Origin: Thermoplasmata archaeon
GTDB taxonomy: Archaea > Thermoplasmatota > E2 > UBA202 > JdFR-43
DNA: 19,976 bases
Assembly (NCBI GenBank): GCA_021161135.1
Contig: JAGHBD010000036.1
Location: forward strand, 1-19,976
Direction of reading: 5' to 3'
Below, piece after piece: positions 5,900-18,543 of this stretch (positions are counted from its first letter, which is position 1; the number at the start of each line of letters is the position of its first letter). The notes beneath the pieces were generated by a model that saw only the letters and a list, made by a program, of their open reading frames with translations, made no database searches and was not told the DNA's origin. The position numbers and the translations under genes are program-made.

Positions 5900-5922
5900 T
5901 TTGATAGCAATATGCTATCAAA
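5900..5922. repeat. Perfect 23-base inverted repeat over the response-regulator start codon
   Basis: The arms TTTGATAGCA (5900-5909) and TGCTATCAAA (5913-5922) are exact reverse complements separated by ATA. The A of the start codon is the last base of the spacer, and codons 2-4 (CTA TCA AAC) lie in the right arm. The position, right after the TATA box and across the expected transcription start, suits an operator bound by a dimeric regulator. Alternatively the mRNA 5' end could fold. Which protein binds is unknown. Confidence 0.6.
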
Positions 5923-6313
5923 CTCACCCATCATATTGATTGTAGAAGACGATGAATTTATTCAGGATTTAATAGCCAGATATCTTTCCAGCTTAGGTGC
6001 TGAAATCTATTTTGCATCTGATGGCATAGAAGGTGTTAGAAAATATGAGGAGTTAATGGAAAGTGGTAAAAGACCGGATATCGTTATAATGGATATTGGC
6101 TTGCCTTTCAGAGATGGCATAGAGGCAACAAGAGAAATTATGAAAATTGACAGGGATGCTGTTGTATATGGTTTCACTGCTTTTTATGGAACAGAAAAAG
6201 CTGAAGCATTGTTGAATGAAGGAGCAAGGGCGGTGATTCCTCGATCAGTTGGTTTTGAAAAATTCAGAGAGATTATAAGAGAAGCTCTTTTCGGCAAAGC
6301 TATTATTCATTAA
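5912..6313 (+). CDS. Stand-alone response regulator receiver domain
   Basis: The 133-residue protein is a single CheY-like receiver domain with no output domain. The acidic pocket is Asp13 and Asp14 (VEDDE), the phospho-acceptor is Asp61 (VIMDIGLP) and the switch Thr is Thr89 (GFTAF). At the position of the conserved Lys of the usual KP pair, the sequence reads IPRSVGF: Arg111 and Ser112 replace Lys and Pro. Phosphorylation may still occur, but signalling through the Lys-phosphate contact would be altered. No histidine kinase is adjacent, so the partner is elsewhere. The start has no alternative Met, a TATA box about 27 bases upstream and the 23-base palindrome across it. The 3' end overlaps the convergent LOG-family gene by 11 bases. 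Confidence 0.92.
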   Translation: MLSNSPIILIVEDDEFIQDLIARYLSSLGAEIYFASDGIEGVRKYEELMESGKRPDIVIMDIGLPFRDGIEATREIMKIDRDAVVYGFTAFYGTEKAEALLNEGARAVIPRSVGFEKFREIIREALFGKAIIH

Positions 6314-6820: not shown

Positions 6821-9283
6821 TTATGAGGGAGGGAGGAGTTGAAGGCTTGGGTCGCCGAGTAAAACCCACTGTTCCACTGTTTTTAAATCGCCAGGATCCC
6901 ATCCTTCATGGACATCTGGAAGCACGAATTCATGGAAATGGGTTATGTAATTACTTACTGCTCCTGCATAAACATTGCCTAAAACAGGCAAAGCCTCTCC
7001 TTCTGCATATACTCTGAAAAACTCTGTCGTTATCCAGTTATCCACGCCCCCCACTACACACCACTCGCCTAAGTTTCCGTAGCCATATCCTGTATTACCA
7101 ATGCTTGCGATGGCTCCGGTGCCCGGCTGTTTAACTATATACCAGCTCCAGCATTCCGGCACAGGATAGCCATATGTATTCATGTATCTTTTATTGAACC
7201 AGTCAATGGCAGTCAGAGCTATGGAAACATTAAACTGGCTGTTGTGACATCCGCCAACAACACATACGAATGGTTTTCCTTCATTCGCTATTTTATCCAT
7301 CGGGAAATATGGCGGCCCATATAAATCGCTCACAGATAAGCCCACCACTTCAGCATGCTGTCTGTTGCCAGGTATGCCAGGATAGTGATTTGCCCATATT
7401 CCTGGGCTGCCATGACCTGAGAAGAATACAAAGCCAGCTCCTTGAGTCAGCGCCTCCACAACATCTTTCTTGCCCGTGAAATTTCCGTTGGCAGTAGATA
7501 GGAATATTTTCTCAAAATTATCTGGCATGTAATAGAATGCGCCACCCCTTCCATGGAGAAGTTTTTCTCCCACTGTCCAGTCGCCCTCAGCAATTTGCAG
7601 CGTATTATTTCTCCATGCTTCAAAAACAACCTCGCCATTACTGTTTTCAATCCATACATGGATGTTGGTGTAATCGCCATATAATTTGGGATCATATGAC
7701 TTGCCTCTAATGTAAAGAATACCATCTACATATTCCACATCTGCCCAGTGAAGATATGAGTTGAGATATGCTTCTCTTTCAGAAGGAGAATAGGTATAGT
7801 CGTTTTTGCCAACAACATCTCCCTCGGAAATGGAAACAATCTTTGCTATTGGCGGCGCTGGATAACCTTTCTGTAATTCTGGAATCAGATAATCATCATG
7901 ATTGAATGTTAGTTTTGTTTCCGCATTGTGGTCTACGGTAAAATGGGTTACATCTATTGGTCCTGCCTCGCCTTCATCATTGAAGCTCTGGGCATACAGC
8001 GTGTATTCTCCATCTGGGACATTGCTCACATCCCAAGTTATATTCAAGTCCTGCTGATCAAGGAAACCATCTCCTGTAATTCCTATCATTCTGTAGAACC
8101 AACTGCTTTTATCACTGCTTTCATAAGCGATTATTTTATTTACTACATCCCTCACCTCTTTCTCGCTTCTACATGCAAGGCGCCCAAGATACACATCTGG
8201 GTATAAATCCAGTGTATCCTTCTTAGCCATGGTGTATTCTGCAAATATTCCATTACCATTGCTATCCCAGTCATCAAAAACTGGCTGACCATCTTCATAT
8301 TTATATACGTCGGCATAATACAAGTCGGTTATAAAGCCAGGATCATCACCCTGCCAGTATTTCCAGTTTGAATATCTCACTGGCACATACCACCCTTTTA
8401 CGCCTGCATTGCTGTTGTCTCGTGGTTTTGCATATATAATTGATTTAAGCCCTCCCACCAGCAGCACATATTTTACTCCCCACTCCTCTATTGCATCTTT
8501 TATAGCATATTTTATTTTCTCTGGCTCATCCCTTCCCTCATATTTGGAATAAATCTCCTCTGTTGTTTCCAGTATTGCAGAAATCCCCATGGAATTTTTG
8601 TGTTCTATGAGGGGCTGAAGCTCATCTGAAAAGACAGATGGAGCTATTACAAGTAATTGATATGTGCTCGATGATGTGCTTTTTTCAGGAGCCTTATATC
8701 TAATTTCAATCTCTGCTTTTTGAGCAATAATCGCTTTTTCCTCCATTGGTGAATATCTTACAGGATAAACATTGACGACGACATGCGTAACCCTCTCTCC
8801 TTTTCCATTTAATCCTATGCCGATGTGATAATCATACCACTTGGAGGGGAAATATTCCTTGCTTTCATATATGGCTTCATTTTTTCCCTCACCAACACGC
8901 ATTCCATCAGAAAGGCGATATCTGGCAGGTGCTGGAACAATCTCTTTTGAAATGTTGTAGTCCATAACATCTCTCACTGCTACACTAACTTCTATATCTT
9001 TTGCTCCAAATGGCAGCTCAAATCTCTTCACCATTTTTGGCAGCACGGGGGCGCCAGGTTTTATTAGATATGAATTGCAGTTGTCTAAAGAAACTTCAAT
9101 GTAATTCTCTTTTTCCTTCATTTCTATATTGGAGAAAGAAATTTCCTCTGTTAATTTCTGCCATTCTTTTTGTGTAGCTAAATTTTCTATGCTTTTTTCC
9201 ATCCCTGCCATGTGAAAAGTATTAATTAGCAATACAACTGCCAGAAATATAACAAATTTTCTTGCCTTCATTTTGCTCCCCAT
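6821..9283 (-). CDS. Secreted gingipain-like cysteine peptidase, family C25
   Basis: The 820-residue protein begins with a Sec signal peptide (basic MKARK, then hydrophobic FVIFLAVVLLI) and a propeptide-like region of about 200 residues. The caspase-like C25 catalytic unit starts near residue 208 (YQLLVIAPSVF). The catalytic His lies in FFSGHGSPG near residue 624 and the catalytic Cys in VVGGCHNSQF near 678. A beta-rich insertion (about 410-560), with Ig-like sequence such as PDGEYTLYAQSF, separates the two parts. The chain ends in the typical WVLLGDPSLQL. No C-terminal membrane anchor or PKD domain is seen, so the mature enzyme may be released. Gingipains cut after Arg or Lys; specificity here cannot be read. 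The start ATG at 9283 has a TATA box 23 bases upstream; Met5 (9271), preceded by GGGGAG, is an alternative. It lies just downstream of the papain-like gene. Confidence 0.92.
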   Translation of the reverse strand: MGSKMKARKFVIFLAVVLLINTFHMAGMEKSIENLATQKEWQKLTEEISFSNIEMKEKENYIEVSLDNCNSYLIKPGAPVLPKMVKRFELPFGAKDIEVSVAVRDVMDYNISKEIVPAPARYRLSDGMRVGEGKNEAIYESKEYFPSKWYDYHIGIGLNGKGERVTHVVVNVYPVRYSPMEEKAIIAQKAEIEIRYKAPEKSTSSSTYQLLVIAPSVFSDELQPLIEHKNSMGISAILETTEEIYSKYEGRDEPEKIKYAIKDAIEEWGVKYVLLVGGLKSIIYAKPRDNSNAGVKGWYVPVRYSNWKYWQGDDPGFITDLYYADVYKYEDGQPVFDDWDSNGNGIFAEYTMAKKDTLDLYPDVYLGRLACRSEKEVRDVVNKIIAYESSDKSSWFYRMIGITGDGFLDQQDLNITWDVSNVPDGEYTLYAQSFNDEGEAGPIDVTHFTVDHNAETKLTFNHDDYLIPELQKGYPAPPIAKIVSISEGDVVGKNDYTYSPSEREAYLNSYLHWADVEYVDGILYIRGKSYDPKLYGDYTNIHVWIENSNGEVVFEAWRNNTLQIAEGDWTVGEKLLHGRGGAFYYMPDNFEKIFLSTANGNFTGKKDVVEALTQGAGFVFFSGHGSPGIWANHYPGIPGNRQHAEVVGLSVSDLYGPPYFPMDKIANEGKPFVCVVGGCHNSQFNVSIALTAIDWFNKRYMNTYGYPVPECWSWYIVKQPGTGAIASIGNTGYGYGNLGEWCVVGGVDNWITTEFFRVYAEGEALPVLGNVYAGAVSNYITHFHEFVLPDVHEGWDPGDLKTVEQWVLLGDPSLQLLPPS

Positions 9284-9300
9284 TCATCTAATCGTCTAGG

Positions 9301-9310
9301 ATTTATAAAA
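9301..9310 (-). promoter_or_regulatory. TATA box for the C25 peptidase gene
   Basis: Minus-strand TTTTATAAAT is centred about 23 bases before the ATG at 9283 and lies directly after the stop codon of the C1A gene. The C25 gene can therefore probably be transcribed on its own as well as by read-through. Confidence 0.55.
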
Positions 9311-11257
9311 TTAACTTACATGTCTTCTTCTTAAAAGAATTATGACTAATGCCATGAAAACCAATAGAAATTCAAAACTTGGCATGCTTTTTTTCTTCAC
9401 TTCTATCTGCATTACATATGTCGCTACATCCCCATCATCATCTGTAATAAGGAGAGTGACGTTATATTTTCCGCTCTTGATATAAATATGGCTAACATTC
9501 TTTCCATATGCAATGCTTCCGTCTCCAAAGTTCCATGTGTAGTTGGCAATGAAGCCATCCAAATCATATGAAGTGGAATTAAAGAAGATAGTCTCATTTT
9601 TTTCTGGCGTGAATGGTTGCCATGTGAAATTGGCTACTGGTGGCACATTTTCAACCATTATTTCTTTCGTTATTGTTGATATCGCCCCATCATTGTCTGT
9701 TACAGTTAGCGTTACATTGTATATTCCATCATCGTTGTAGCGGTGTTGGACAACTATGCCGTATGCAACATTTCCATCTCCAAAGTCCCATGTGTAGTTA
9801 GTAATGAAACCATCGCTATCGTAGCTCGAAGAAGCATTGAATGTTATTTCATCTAAATCTGTTGGATTTTGAGGTTGCCATGTGAAATTGGCTACTGGTG
9901 GCATATTTGTGACAATAACCTTTTTTACAACACTATCCTTTGCGCCATCGTCATCCTCAACAGTGAGTATAACATAATATGTACCACTTGCATTATATTT
10001 ATGAGATGGGTTTCTCTCATAGCTAACATTTCCATCACCAAATCTCCAGAACCATGAAATTATTTCTCCATCACTATCATATGATTCATCGTAAAAATAA
10101 ATCACATCAGATACCCTCGGATTTGAGGGGCTGTAAAAGAAATTGGCTATCGGTGGCACATTTTCAACTGTTATGAGTTTCCATGTTGTTGATGTTGCTC
10201 CATCATTGTCTGTTACAGTTAGTGTTACATTGTATGTTCCATCATCATTGTAGCGATGTATGGGGTTTTGTTCGTTGCTTGTTGTGCCGTCTCCAAAATC
10301 CCAGTGCCAAGCAATGATGCTTCCATCGCTATCATAACTTGTGTCTGTGAATTGTATGTTATCTTGTGTTGTTGGGCTGGTTGGCGTATAAGTGAAATCT
10401 GCTACTGGAGGGTTATTCTCGCCACTTGGAGTATATGTGAGGTATGCTACACTGCTTTCTATGCTGCAGTTTCCATATTTTATTTTAAAATACCCATTTA
10501 AGCCCCCACTCGTCCCCCAACTATTTTTGCATATCCAATATCCCCCTGCATCATCATAGCCGACGATTACGACAGCATGTCCCCCTTTTTCTGCTCCGTA
10601 ATAATGATAATATACCTGATTTGGCCATGCATCCGGATTAGTCCAGTAATCATAAAAATCTTCATAGACATCCATACCTGCAATAAGGGGACCGTATGTT
10701 ATGAGGGCATTTTTTATATCTGCCTCATCAACCCAGCCCCAGTCATCTATTTTCCATGCTCTCTGCTGCCAATCATCACATGTATTGCTGCATGGCAAAT
10801 CATTGCCGTCATAAGCCCCATCATATGGGAAGCAATCTTCATCTGGAGTGCCATAATTCATTAAATAATCGAGGGTGCTGGAAATATACCATCCCGTATC
10901 ACAATCTCCTCCACTGCAGAAAAAAAGATGCGCTTCAGATAAATCTGTCGTTATATTTTGCTTTATCTTTATAACTGCTTCAAAAGCACCAAGAGCAGCA
11001 AAAGCTGTGCATGAGCCGCATGCCCCCTGCGATTTCACGGGCGTCATATAGTTGATTCCATCAACGTTTCTCCAATCCCAAGACGGTGGAGGGGTTGCAA
11101 AAGAGGTTATAGTTGGCTGAGTAGAGGGATATTCTCTTATGCAGCCAAGAGCAAAATATTCGCTGCTTTCAGCACTTTCAGCATTATGGTTCTGGAAAGT
11201 AAAAAGAGCAGCTGATATCACAAAGCTTACAACAAGCACAAATAGCATCCTTTTCAT
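9311..11257 (-). CDS. Secreted papain-like (C1A) cysteine peptidase with four PKD domains and a C-terminal anchor
   Basis: The 648-residue protein is exported: residues 4-20 are a signal peptide. The mature C1A domain starts near SWDWRNVDG (59-67) and has the full papain set: Gln77 (KSQGACGSC), catalytic Cys83, His227 (GGHAVVIVGYD) and Asn245 (CKNSWGTS). The residue after Cys83 is Thr, where papain has Trp. There is almost no propeptide (about 35 residues), so activation differs from classical papains. Four PKD domains follow (about 283-367, 368-452, 453-538, 539-622), each with the WxFGDG core. The end is MPSFEF, a hydrophobic segment and RRRHVS, resembling PGF-CTERM sorting signals with Ser for Gly. 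The enzyme is therefore probably anchored at the cell surface for extracellular protein degradation. It is divergent from the Roadblock gene. Confidence 0.94.
   Translation of the reverse strand: MKRMLFVLVVSFVISAALFTFQNHNAESAESSEYFALGCIREYPSTQPTITSFATPPPSWDWRNVDGINYMTPVKSQGACGSCTAFAALGAFEAVIKIKQNITTDLSEAHLFFCSGGDCDTGWYISSTLDYLMNYGTPDEDCFPYDGAYDGNDLPCSNTCDDWQQRAWKIDDWGWVDEADIKNALITYGPLIAGMDVYEDFYDYWTNPDAWPNQVYYHYYGAEKGGHAVVIVGYDDAGGYWICKNSWGTSGGLNGYFKIKYGNCSIESSVAYLTYTPSGENNPPVADFTYTPTSPTTQDNIQFTDTSYDSDGSIIAWHWDFGDGTTSNEQNPIHRYNDDGTYNVTLTVTDNDGATSTTWKLITVENVPPIANFFYSPSNPRVSDVIYFYDESYDSDGEIISWFWRFGDGNVSYERNPSHKYNASGTYYVILTVEDDDGAKDSVVKKVIVTNMPPVANFTWQPQNPTDLDEITFNASSSYDSDGFITNYTWDFGDGNVAYGIVVQHRYNDDGIYNVTLTVTDNDGAISTITKEIMVENVPPVANFTWQPFTPEKNETIFFNSTSYDLDGFIANYTWNFGDGSIAYGKNVSHIYIKSGKYNVTLLITDDDGDVATYVMQIEVKKKSMPSFEFLLVFMALVIILLRRRHVS
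9392..10411 (-). repeat. Four tandem PKD-domain units of about 255 bases
   Basis: Units lie at about 10157-10411, 9902-10156, 9644-9901 and 9392-9643. Stretches of near-identical DNA link non-adjacent and adjacent units: 60 bases at 10200-10259 and 9687-9746 differ at four positions, and 31 bases at 9873-9903 and 9615-9645 are identical. This implies recent duplication or gene conversion. Confidence 0.85.
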
Positions 11258-11350: not shown

Positions 11351-11716
11351 ATGAAAGAGGAGGCTTATAAAAAAATACTCAGTGATTTGGAAGCAGAGGC
11401 AAATGTGGAAGGAAGCTGCATTGTTTCAAGAGATGGTATTCTGATATATTCCAGCCTTAAGGATGTTTATGCCGAGGCTTTTGCTGCAATGCTTGCCACC
11501 TTATTAAGCTCTGCTGAAGTTGCAATGGATGAATTAAAAGCGGGGGTGCCAAAGAAAGTCATTGTGGATGGTAAAAATAGAAAGATTGTGGTGATAGGAG
11601 CAGGTAGTCATGCGCTCCTCGCAAGCATTACTGAAGGGAATGCAGATGAAATATACGAAGCTATGATAAAGGCAGCCAAAAAAATTGATGAGGTATTAAG
11701 TGGAAAAAATGATTGA
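11351..11716 (+). CDS. Roadblock/LC7 domain protein (MglB-like)
   Basis: This single-domain Roadblock/LC7 protein has about 121 residues. The order fits the fold: helix (EEAYKKILSDLEAEA), strands (GSCIVSRDGILIYSS), a long helix (AEAFAAMLATLLSSAEVAMDE), two strands (KKVIVDG and RKIVVIGAG), and a last helix. Proteins of this family dimerise and regulate small Ras- or Arf-like GTPases; bacterial MglB is the GAP of MglA, and CvnB pairs with CvnD in actinobacterial conservons. The GTPase encoded directly downstream is the obvious partner. I chose ATG 11351; TTG 11339 would add four residues. The 3' end overlaps the next gene by 17 bases, indicating coupled translation. No Shine-Dalgarno precedes it, consistent with a near-leaderless first gene. 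Confidence 0.85.
   Translation: MKEEAYKKILSDLEAEANVEGSCIVSRDGILIYSSLKDVYAEAFAAMLATLLSSAEVAMDELKAGVPKKVIVDGKNRKIVVIGAGSHALLASITEGNADEIYEAMIKAAKKIDEVLSGKND
11690..11694 (+). promoter_or_regulatory. Shine-Dalgarno deciding the GTG start of the RecA-GTPase fusion
   Basis: GAGGT lies five bases before the GTG at 11700, inside the end of the Roadblock gene. The in-frame ATG at 11709 would have 14 bases of spacing. The GTG is therefore the better start. Confidence 0.45.
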
Positions 11717-12869
11717 AACCGGTATATCAAAACTGGATGAATATTTGGGTGGCATACCGGAAGGCAAATCTATTATTTTTCAGATCGAGCCTGGCGTTGA
11801 GGAAAGCAATATCGCCATACATGTCTTATATCATAATCTGAAAAAAGGATTAAATGGAATATATATCGCTTCAGAAAGCTCACCAAAAAATGTTGAAAAG
11901 AAATTTAGAGAATTCGGCTGGGAAATAAAAAATTTCAACAACCTCCATATAATAGATGGCTATTCCTCACTTATAGGAGCTCCATCTGAAGAAAAATTTG
12001 TTGTTGAAGAGCCACATGATATCAGGAGTTATGAAGATGTCATAATAGAAATAATGGAAAAGGTGGGCGGAGGAGGCGTCTTAGTTTTTGATTCTCTCTC
12101 CAACATAATGGATATGTGTGGCGAGAGAGAAACGCTTGAGGGTATAGAAAGAATTAATAGAGATGTAGCAAAAGAAGGATATACAACCATTTACAATTTC
12201 ATTTCATGGCCCTACAAAGAAGCGATACTTTACAGACTGAGGAGACTTTTCAATGCAATAATTGAAGTGAGGACAGTTGAAGATGTTGTTGCAAGGCAAA
12301 GAATGGAAATAAAAAAGGCTGACTGGTGTCAGGCAGAGGGTAAAAAACTGGAGTTCAAAATATTTAAGCCCGAAGGGATAAGGATATATATTCCAAAAAT
12401 AAGTGTCATCGGCCCTTATCAGGCAGGAAAGACAACCTTTATAAAATCCATATCAAGGAATTTCACACCAGTAGAAAGGCTTGGAGCAACTGTTGGTGTA
12501 GAGCATGGAACTGTCGATTACAAGCAATATAGGGCAGAGATATTCGGAATACCTGGACAGGAAAGGTTTCTCCCTCTCCTCGATAAACTTGGTTCATCTT
12601 CAAAAGGTGTTTTTCTTGTAATAGATTCAACAAAACCGCATGAATTCGAGCTTGCCAAGAACATGCTTGCCAAATTTGGTGATATACCATATGTAATAGT
12701 AGCCAATAAGCAGGATTTGCCAGGAGCATTGAGAAAAGATGAGTTGAAAAATAAGATGGGGCTGCCTGAGGCGGAGATAGTGGAAACGGTGGCGTCGCAA
12801 GGTAAGGGAGTGTATGAAGCCTTTGAAAAGTTAGTTGAGAAAATATTGGAGTGTTTAAATGCTGGCTAA
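11700..12869 (+). CDS. Fusion of a degenerate RecA/KaiC-like domain and an Arf/COG2229-like small GTPase
   Basis: Residues 1-225 have the RecA/KaiC/Rad55 layout: GISKLDEYLGGIPEG, a Walker B-like strand (VLVFDSLS), and a later IIEVRTVED. The Walker A loop is lost: PGVEESN (31-37) stands where GxGKT is expected. Residues about 230-389 form a small GTPase with intact motifs: G1 GPYQAGKTT (238-246), switch I Thr in GATVGVE, G3 GIPGQERF, G4 NKQD (about 336-339) and G5 VASQGKG. The G3 form, with GxPGQE in place of DxxGQ, matches COG2229 and MglA-like GTPases. It probably works as a GTP switch controlled by the adjacent Roadblock protein, with the RecA-like half as scaffold or sensor; this role is inferred. 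It overlaps the Roadblock gene by 17 bases and the next gene by 11. Confidence 0.88.
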   Translation: MEKMIETGISKLDEYLGGIPEGKSIIFQIEPGVEESNIAIHVLYHNLKKGLNGIYIASESSPKNVEKKFREFGWEIKNFNNLHIIDGYSSLIGAPSEEKFVVEEPHDIRSYEDVIIEIMEKVGGGGVLVFDSLSNIMDMCGERETLEGIERINRDVAKEGYTTIYNFISWPYKEAILYRLRRLFNAIIEVRTVEDVVARQRMEIKKADWCQAEGKKLEFKIFKPEGIRIYIPKISVIGPYQAGKTTFIKSISRNFTPVERLGATVGVEHGTVDYKQYRAEIFGIPGQERFLPLLDKLGSSSKGVFLVIDSTKPHEFELAKNMLAKFGDIPYVIVANKQDLPGALRKDELKNKMGLPEAEIVETVASQGKGVYEAFEKLVEKILECLNAG

Positions 12870-13578
12870 AACAGGAATAGATAGGCTTGATGAACTTCTG
12901 AAGGGTGGGATACCTGTAAAAAGCAACGTTCTCGTATATGCTCCTCCTTTTATTGGAAGAGAAATTATTCTCAAAAGATTCGCTCTTTCTGGTTTAGAGG
13001 AAGGCAACGACATTCTTTTTGTTTTAACAGATAAATCGTTTGCTGACATGAGAGAAGAAATGAAAAAACTGGATGAGAAATATGAGAAATATGAAGAAGA
13101 AGGAAGAGTGAGATACATCGATGTTTATTCAACGAGTGTGGAACTAAAGGAGGAAAGCAAATGGGCAGTATTTGTCGATAGCCCCATCAACAGGGAAAGA
13201 ATAGCATCCTCAATCATCCAGATTTTAAAGGAAAAGCAGGGCAGCAGTCATCGCATCATATTTGATTCAATTTCTACCCTCATTGTATATTCAGATGCAA
13301 AGGCTGTTTTCCGTTTTCTTCAGGTGTTGAGTGGCATATGCAAAAGAATGAATGCGACATCAATGTTCAGTATGACGAGAGGGATGCATGAAGAGATAGA
13401 AGTGCAAACAATAAAACATCTCATGGACGGCGTCATAGAATTGAGAGAGGAGGGCGCCCGCTTCCAGCTTCGCGTGCAGGGATGCGGAGAAGTTATTTCT
13501 CGCCACTGGATTGACTATGTGCTTGAAGGCGAGGAGCTTCGTCTTACAGGAGCATTCAGGATGGGAAGAGTTGCATAA
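12859..13578 (+). CDS. RecA/KaiC-like protein with degenerate Walker A motif
   Basis: The 239-residue single-domain RecA-superfamily protein opens like KaiC/RadA relatives (KTGIDRLDELLKGGIP). Its P-loop reads APPFIGREI (28-36), where the invariant Lys is Arg and the Thr is Glu, so ATP hydrolysis is doubtful. The Walker B strand RIIFDSIS keeps its Asp. A charged helix (about 62-85) and a C-terminal strand-rich part (GARFQLRVQGCGEVI) follow. It resembles the N-terminal half of the preceding fusion, suggesting duplication or a heterodimer. The start ATG 12859 has GGAGTG at 12848-12853, five bases upstream, and overlaps the preceding gene by 11 bases. The 3' end overlaps the convergent DUF131 gene by 23 bases. 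Probable third component of the GTPase cassette. Confidence 0.83.
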   Translation: MLAKTGIDRLDELLKGGIPVKSNVLVYAPPFIGREIILKRFALSGLEEGNDILFVLTDKSFADMREEMKKLDEKYEKYEEEGRVRYIDVYSTSVELKEESKWAVFVDSPINRERIASSIIQILKEKQGSSHRIIFDSISTLIVYSDAKAVFRFLQVLSGICKRMNATSMFSMTRGMHEEIEVQTIKHLMDGVIELREEGARFQLRVQGCGEVISRHWIDYVLEGEELRLTGAFRMGRVA

Positions 13579-17952: not shown

Positions 17953-18543
17953 TTATGTAAAGGTTACTTCGGGCAAAGTCATTATCCATATATCCAATAA
18001 TATAGAGATAGTTATCAGAAGTATGAGAGGTATCAGAGAAATTATTACACCCAATATCGCCTTTGATGTAGTAAATTCATGGATTTCTCTCACTCCAATA
18101 ACAGTTAAAGCAAAAACCCATGCAAGAAATATACCCTCTAAAAGCAGGCTCACGATATGAGGTATGATAAAGGTATGCATAAGGAGTGATGGTAAAATTG
18201 CGATCCAGCCAAAAAGGAGTTGCGGAGTTCTTGCATACGCAATTATTTTCACAGTTTTAATATAGCCTCTTCCGCCGAGCAGCACAATCCAGAGATGGAG
18301 CCAGGCTGCGCCTATGATAAGAATGAGGAGCCCTCCCGCTACTGACCCAAGCATTGCAAAAAACAGCAACATTGGTTCATCTTTATAGTCAGTTATGAAA
18401 TAAATTATGGATACAATAACAGTGTATATCATGAGAAGGGAAAAATAGTAGCGTATAGATTCATCAACACCCTCTTTTTTTATCTTTTCAAAGGTTATTG
18501 AGGGGAATAAAATAAAACCCTTTATCTTATCCCTCGTTAGCAT
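17953..18543 (-). CDS. Yip1-like multi-pass membrane protein
   Basis: The 196-residue protein has a short amphipathic N-terminus (FILFPSITFEKIKKEG) and five predicted membrane helices. The core has the hallmarks of the Yip1 domain family: YARTPQLLFGWI in the middle and IGVREIHEFTTSKAILGVI near the end. Eukaryotic Yip1 proteins act in vesicle traffic with Rab GTPases; in prokaryotes the role is unknown and traffic is not implied. The start is ATG 18543, 34 bases after the stop of the preceding small membrane protein, with no TATA box at a proper distance and no Shine-Dalgarno. It probably lies on the same transcript. A 133-base gap separates it from the por operon, which seems to have its own promoter. 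Confidence 0.8.
   Translation of the reverse strand: MLTRDKIKGFILFPSITFEKIKKEGVDESIRYYFSLLMIYTVIVSIIYFITDYKDEPMLLFFAMLGSVAGGLLILIIGAAWLHLWIVLLGGRGYIKTVKIIAYARTPQLLFGWIAILPSLLMHTFIIPHIVSLLLEGIFLAWVFALTVIGVREIHEFTTSKAILGVIISLIPLILLITISILLDIWIMTLPEVTFT

Follow-up and report, generated by a model that had tools for sequence, protein, structure and literature searches.

The MglA/MglB system of Myxococcus and Thermus comprises a small GTPase domain, in which the G3 motif lacks Asp and the G4 motif reads NKxD, and an adjacent Roadblock gene (PMC4316618); in bacteria, it controls type IV pili and polarity (PMC4316618; PMC9481161). As described by Wuichet and Sogaard-Andersen, GTPGQ is the G3 motif of MglA Groups 2-5, where the Roadblock partners have an Asp-Gly pair (PMC4316618). 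A different type of control is described for the archaellum, where the KaiC-like protein ArlH binds but does not hydrolyze ATP, is thought to stimulate the ATPase ArlI when ATP-bound, and loses its interaction with ArlI upon autophosphorylation (PMC8978795). Here we describe a three-gene cassette that encodes a Roadblock protein, a fusion of a KaiC-like domain with a small GTPase (FUS), and a second KaiC-like protein (RECA2). The cassette lies in a 19,976-nucleotide stretch of contig JAGHBD010000036.1 (assembly GCA_021161135.1; genome code G000, 87% complete) of a Thermoplasmata archaeon, referred to below as the window. It is a Roadblock-coupled small GTPase of a known kind with an unusual fused KaiC adaptor; what is new here is that the cassette adjoins type IV pilus ATPase and platform genes in relatives.

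Inspection of the open reading frames confirmed the three overlapping genes of a preliminary description, and Pfam agrees with their assignment. All lie on the forward strand. The first (11351..11716) encodes a 121-residue Roadblock/LC7 protein of MglB type (PF03259, E 3.5e-16; 59.1 bits with the Robl_LC7 profile versus a cut-off of 23). FUS (11700..12869, 389 residues) joins a KaiC/RecA-fold domain that has lost its Walker A motif (11712..12392; PF06745, E 1.7e-22, residues 5-231) to an Arf/MglA-like GTPase domain (12393..12848; PF00025, E 9.5e-17, residues 233-382), and its AlphaFold2 model has a predicted local distance difference test score of 93.1 and a predicted template modeling score of 0.89. 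RECA2 (12859..13578, 239 residues) matches Pfam KaiC with E 5.2e-28 and has a partly degenerate Walker A.

The overlap of 17 bases between the Roadblock and fusion genes, as first reported, requires a GTG start for the fusion. The residue matching Met4 (ATG at 11709) is the start in most close relatives, which suggest the same start here, and the overlap would then be 8 bases. The 11-base overlap between the fusion and RECA2 stands, and is also present in relatives (e.g., L008-L010). Overlaps of this type point to translational coupling rather than to the fixed stoichiometry that had been read from them.

Motif states were derived from alignments of 105 fusion sequences for the KaiC-part Walker A and the catalytic Gln, 104 for the other GTPase motifs and 103 for RECA2, each including the window; only identical sequences were dropped, and one gene from two collections may count twice. 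The GTPase motifs had been called intact, which holds for G1 (GPYQAGKT, 12411..12434) and G4 (NKQD, 12705..12716), but G3 (GIPGQ, 12546..12560) lacks the canonical Asp, with the catalytic Gln present in the window. G1 retains G, K and S/T in 104/104 fusions, matching the MglA-family P-loop GxxxxGK[ST], and G4 is near-invariant (N in 103, K in 99 and D in 100 of 104). The G3 Asp position is Gly in 104/104 sequences (GxPGQ form), followed by Thr in 80/104 and by Ile in the window, and the catalytic Gln is found in 95/105. MglA Groups 2-5 have a Thr next to the G2 Thr where an Arg finger would stand (PMC4316618); in the aligned fusions this residue is never Arg, but Thr in 82/104 sequences and Ala in 19, among them the window.

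By plain similarity to Pfam and PDB sequences, the closest relatives of the GTPase domain are Arf proteins, and Foldseek aligns it with the Asgard Arf 8oum_B (E 4.4e-13); an MglA-like identity is suggested by its motifs and gene context. The fusion is coupled to a Roadblock protein as MglA Groups 2-5 are, and at 389 residues it is not a single-domain GTPase of 240 residues or fewer. Because the 2014 survey drew its MglA classes from GTPases of at most 240 residues (PMC4316618), the fusion falls outside it. A solved structure of the whole fusion was considered and rejected, as a profile of the fusion gave one-domain matches only among the matches listed (3 of 3 in one comparison, 60 of 151 in another). 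A two-domain KaiC protein as a match for the whole fusion was rejected, as Foldseek rows exceeding 400 columns at a root-mean-square deviation of 11-13 Å describe one domain only.

The cassette Roadblock protein carries the Asp-Gly pair expected of MglB proteins coupled to Groups 2-5 (D28 G29). R27, D28 and G29 are invariant in 21 aligned Roadblock rows, and some rows of a wider set of 35 have another residue in place of the Asp. A profile built from relatives matches 9jue_D (1.1e-28), cvnB5 (2.5e-15) and the MglB structure 6h5b (2.8e-9). Within the window's genome, this protein is the only Robl_LC7 match and the fusion the only Arf-like match above cut-off.

Both KaiC folds were said to have lost Walker A, and an altered motif proved to be the rule among homologues of each. 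In the fusion, the degenerate motif PGVEESN (11790..11810) has Glu35 at the Lys position, where only one of 105 aligned fusions, L149 from Aenigmarchaeota, retains Lys; the commonest residues there are G (45), E (22) and A (11). RECA2 carries PPFIGRE (12943..12963), within the APPFIGREI named earlier, which reads PPFIGKE in many close relatives. Both window proteins have the fold and family profile of KaiC-type ATPases, and neither has the intact GK[ST] of the active enzymes.

The three genes stay linked in other genomes. The fusion occurs in 20/22 genomes of the window's order (the remaining two genomes are 70-71% complete), 23/80 genomes of the class and 35/389 sampled genomes of the phylum, Thermoplasmatota. 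All 20 order loci fetched contain the trio; in one of them a contig end truncates RECA2. A further 15 phylum genomes carry the fusion: the trio is complete in nine, a Roadblock gene is lacking nearby in four and RECA2 in two, with contig ends at one locus of each incomplete type (L068 and L059, respectively). A wider scan of archaeal and bacterial genomes covered the best 80 of 338 relatives, and its counts are lower bounds. Full fusions were found in at least 71 loci, including Thermoplasmata, ANME-2/Methanosarcinales, Methanoperedens, Alkanophagales, Archaeoglobaceae, Methanobacteriaceae, Methanomicrobiales, Bathyarchaeota, Hecatellales, Micrarchaeota, Aenigmarchaeota, Nanoarchaeia, Jordarchaeia and others. 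At least 53 of these 71 have the trio, six have the Roadblock gene only, 11 RECA2 only and one neither. Gene order varies (RECA2-FUS-ROBL in 34, ROBL-FUS-RECA2 in 10, FUS-ROBL-RECA2 in three, others in few).

In several relatives, the cassette is joined to genes for the type IV pilus motor. The order T2SSE-T2SSF-T2SSF2-ROBL-FUS-RECA2, where T2SSF2 is a second protein with a T2SSF domain, runs uninterrupted on one strand in G004, G005 and G011 (two genera within the window's family) and in G019 from a sister family. After RECA2, on its strand, G031 and G091 have pilin-like genes (Pilin_N, DUF7289) and then T2SSE-T2SSF, and G023 has a gene for a membrane protein and then T2SSE-T2SSF-T2SSF2; G023 and G031 belong to other families of the class and G091 to another family of the phylum. 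Cassette and pilus block converge in G117. In G080 they lie ~8 kb apart on one strand, with T2SSE starting 11 kb from the fusion centre and thus outside a 10-kb count. By that count, T2SSE lies near the cassette in 8/24 genomes versus 0.66 expected (P 1e-7), or in 5/14 families versus 0.64 expected (P 2e-4); the null places genes at random given genome size and ignores contig ends and shared descent, which makes the count by family the more dependable of the two. The T2SSE search covered 24 of the 35 genomes that carry the fusion, and 62/84 rows were used after excluding those weaker than ~E 1e-15 (fragments or other ATPases). As a control, V4R-domain genes of the same genomes lie within 10 kb of T2SSE in 2/48 cases. 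This control used 48/49 genes, leaving out a G011 fragment with a stop, and including the excluded T2SSE row on contig C115 of G031 would put a third V4R gene within 10 kb.

A check of nine order genomes gave no ArlH above cut-off, and the same holds for G023, G031 and G080. The pilus ATPase of the window's genome scores 452 bits with the archaellum motor model FlaI, whose cut-off is 550. RECA2 was considered as ArlH and rejected, as the NCBIfam ArlH model gives it 34.7 bits (fusion, 22.9) versus a cut-off of 215.

Our preferred reading, which we hold tentatively, is that the three proteins form a GTP-switched complex that acts in Thermoplasmatota as an ArlH-like adaptor on the pilus motor. 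The fused GTPase would be the switch of a single complex, and the Roadblock protein its putative regulator, with an activity like that of a GTPase-activating or guanine nucleotide exchange factor, as MglB has for MglA. Both KaiC folds, which are catalytically impaired, would serve as the adaptor, and its docking on a partner would be set by the state of the GTPase. For Thermoplasmatota, the type IV pilus assembly ATPase (ArlI/PilB3-like) and its platform proteins are the probable ancestral partner. The GTP state would then replace the ATP-binding and autophosphorylation state through which ArlH controls ArlI; a pilus motor working without ArlH in these archaea would receive two KaiC folds and a GTP switch from the cassette instead. 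The data show the genes, domains, motif states and gene linkages; complex formation, action of the Roadblock protein on this GTPase, docking on the ATPase and the direction of the effect are what we infer here. The preliminary description had likewise proposed a GTP switch with a Roadblock partner and KaiC folds as scaffold, and this remains the best reading, supported in part by the conserved linkage and the altered Walker A motifs.

Several observations weigh against this reading. Eight genomes from three genera of the window's family (G004, G005, G009, G011, G012, G014, G015 and G016) have L, H, R or Y in place of the catalytic Gln (FUS residue 287), and three of them, G004, G005 and G011, also have the cassette within the pilus operon. 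Changes of this type prevent hydrolysis in Ras, and GTP hydrolysis may therefore not matter in these genomes. No Roadblock gene was found within 4 kb in 12/71 full fusions, ten of which are one RECA2-FUS form. The window's own genome has T2SSE on contigs C58 and C152 and the cassette on another contig, with a T2SSE-T2SSF-T2SSF2 operon on C58 that lacks the cassette. No T2SSE was found in the stretches around the cassettes of G001, G006, G008, G009, G010, G012, G013 and G015, some of which extend less than 3 kb on one side, and among the 71 full fusions T2SSE falls within the stretch of L128 only, many stretches being short. G091 and G117 have a linked cassette plus ArlH at another locus. The pilus link comes from relatives, and much of the window's family is without it; the trio is the core, and the pilus probably one output. 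In a further genome, G096, an ArlH-T2SSE pair lies ~11 kb from the cassette on the same contig.

In a somewhat less probable alternative, the trio is one complex serving as a general-purpose archaeal GTP switch, with an output that depends on lineage and is unrelated to pili in the window's organism. The fusion is present in many archaeal groups, and a pilus link is hardly seen beyond Thermoplasmatota, where pilus genes are near only at L128 and at the GTPase-only locus L152; other recurrent neighbours are V4R genes and extra KaiC-like proteins (G089, G098, G106). Two families of the window's order nevertheless keep the cassette in a pilus operon, in an order where ArlH was not found in the nine genomes checked.

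The state of RECA2 bears on a second alternative, which we consider distinctly unlikely: an ATP sensor in which RECA2 binds ATP without hydrolysis, as ArlH does (PMC8978795), and the module integrates the ATP state of RECA2 with the GTP state of the fusion. The RECA2 set comprises every open reading frame scoring best, and above 45 bits, with the RECA2 profile, and may include a few active KaiC proteins. The P-loop Lys position is Lys in 73/103 sequences and Arg in 15/103, that is, Lys or Arg in 88/103, and RECA2 may still bind nucleotide. The Lys-to-Arg change seen in the window is hence a minority state, whereas the Thr-to-Glu change is common, with E/D in 74/103 sequences (S/T in 15, gap in three). 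The Thr/Ser of Walker A holds Mg, and its replacement, together with the Arg in the window, argues against ATP sensing. Finally, a chance operon of decaying signalling genes with no joint function, to which two degenerate KaiC folds and the Gln loss in some relatives might point, is highly improbable and already contradicted by the linkage data, as RECA2 is 71-88% identical among members of the order, G1 is kept in every aligned fusion, and distant archaea keep the trio together though re-ordered, such that drift alone is an unlikely cause and conservation of the trio excludes chance.

Comparison with described systems places the cassette among them without a direct equivalent in the literature searched. 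Unlike in MglA/MglB, the cassette GTPase is the C-terminal half of a 389-residue KaiC fusion, has a partner KaiC protein, and is linked in relatives to archaeal pilus motor genes. The CvnD/CvnB conservon (MglA Group 2) shares a GTPGQ-type G3 and a Roadblock neighbour, and the cassette Roadblock profile matches cvnB5; in contrast, the cassette G4 is NKQD rather than NxFD, and no histidine kinase was found among the window's open reading frames scanned by Pfam. ArlH shares the KaiC fold, and the cassette of relatives is linked to an ArlI-like ATPase and T2SSF platform, but the cassette KaiC proteins are far under the ArlH cut-off, have altered Walker A motifs and are coupled to a GTPase. PH0284, SSO2452 and PH0186 (2dr3, 2w0m, 2zts) have the same KaiC fold in chains of 220-251 residues with no GTPase domain. 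In Asgard archaea, Arf/Rag-like GTPases occur as fusions with Roadblock or longin domains (PMC10933270); the fusion partner in these GTPase-Roadblock/longin/TRAPPC3 proteins is a different one, and the words 'KaiC' and 'RecA' are absent from the text of PMC10933270. The cassette had been called a candidate undescribed switch, and no description of the KaiC-GTPase fusion or of the trio was found in the literature searched, although the Makarova 2017 KaiC survey (mBio) could cover it.

The fusion brings KaiC-like ATPases and Roadblock-coupled small GTPases, both themes of archaeal signalling, together in a single polypeptide across several archaeal phyla, and the pilus motor as candidate target allows the function of the switch to be tested directly. 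Earlier work had noted Roadblock genes at archaeal pilus loci (PMC4858521), and the cassette supplies a possible reason for their presence. A Roadblock protein under arCOG 2603 is reported as threefold up in Ignicoccus carrying Nanoarchaeum (PMC3149612). The cassette also bears on the pre-eukaryotic pairing of Arf/MglA-type GTPases with Roadblock regulators. A broader proposal, which we regard as rather doubtful, is that of a pan-archaeal GTP-gated multi-subunit adaptor, built from the fusion, RECA2 and the Roadblock regulator, with a V4R subunit in some lineages, that would be older than its present uses and would take over the role of ArlH in driving type IV pilus motors; it would correspond in archaea to MglA/MglB polarity control and might be related to eukaryotic Roadblock/TRAPP-GTPase complexes.

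V4R-domain genes adjoin the cassette in Archaeoglobaceae, Hecatellales and Methanomassiliicoccales, and in G096 (Thermoplasmatota), at L124:2382-2978, L126:2446-2958, L127:7421-8005, L142:11942-12214, L145:9446-9943 and L060:9819-10337. Five of the seven members of this cluster are Pfam-confirmed, and L125 and L136 were assigned by clustering only. V4R resembles the TRAPP subunit Bet3, and the V4R protein is a possible fourth subunit of the complex in those lineages. The extra KaiC-like proteins of G089, G098 and G106 lie in the cassette cluster itself. An expanded form at L063, L064 and L066 comprises a KaiC-like protein whose N-terminal region is long, a Walker-A-intact KaiC, the fusion, the Roadblock protein, a hydrophobic protein of 105-119 residues and a degenerate KaiC. 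At ten Methanomicrobiales-type loci where a Roadblock gene was not found (L150, L151, L153-L156, L158, L160, L161, L164), the RECA2-FUS pair lies 10-69 bases upstream of a diphthine-synthase-like gene, as judged by eye. These neighbours, and the YhbY-, S19e- and PDCD5-like ones in Methanosarcinales, also named by eye, look like plain genome context.

A single-domain CheY-like response regulator is convergent with RECA2 in seven genomes of the window's family, G004, G005, G006, G009, G011, G012 and G013 (at L073:7739-8164 in one and at the equivalent place in the other six). The response regulator of the window (5912-6313) was rejected as the cassette-linked one, since the best match to the linked regulator in the window's genome lies on contig C53 (84%), and the window gene matches it at 47%. 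In Myxococcus, MglA likewise acts together with a response regulator, RomR (PMC4316618).

An Rfam scan of the window gave zero matches. Elsewhere in the window, two adjacent peptidase genes on the reverse strand (6821-11257) encode a C25 (gingipain-type) peptidase with propeptide and a papain-like protease, the latter with four PKD matches and, by eye, a C-terminal hydrophobic segment. A Yip1-domain protein (PF04893, E 2.1e-18) is encoded on the reverse strand at 17953-18543, 4.4 kb from the cassette; eukaryotic Yip1 proteins bind Rab GTPases.

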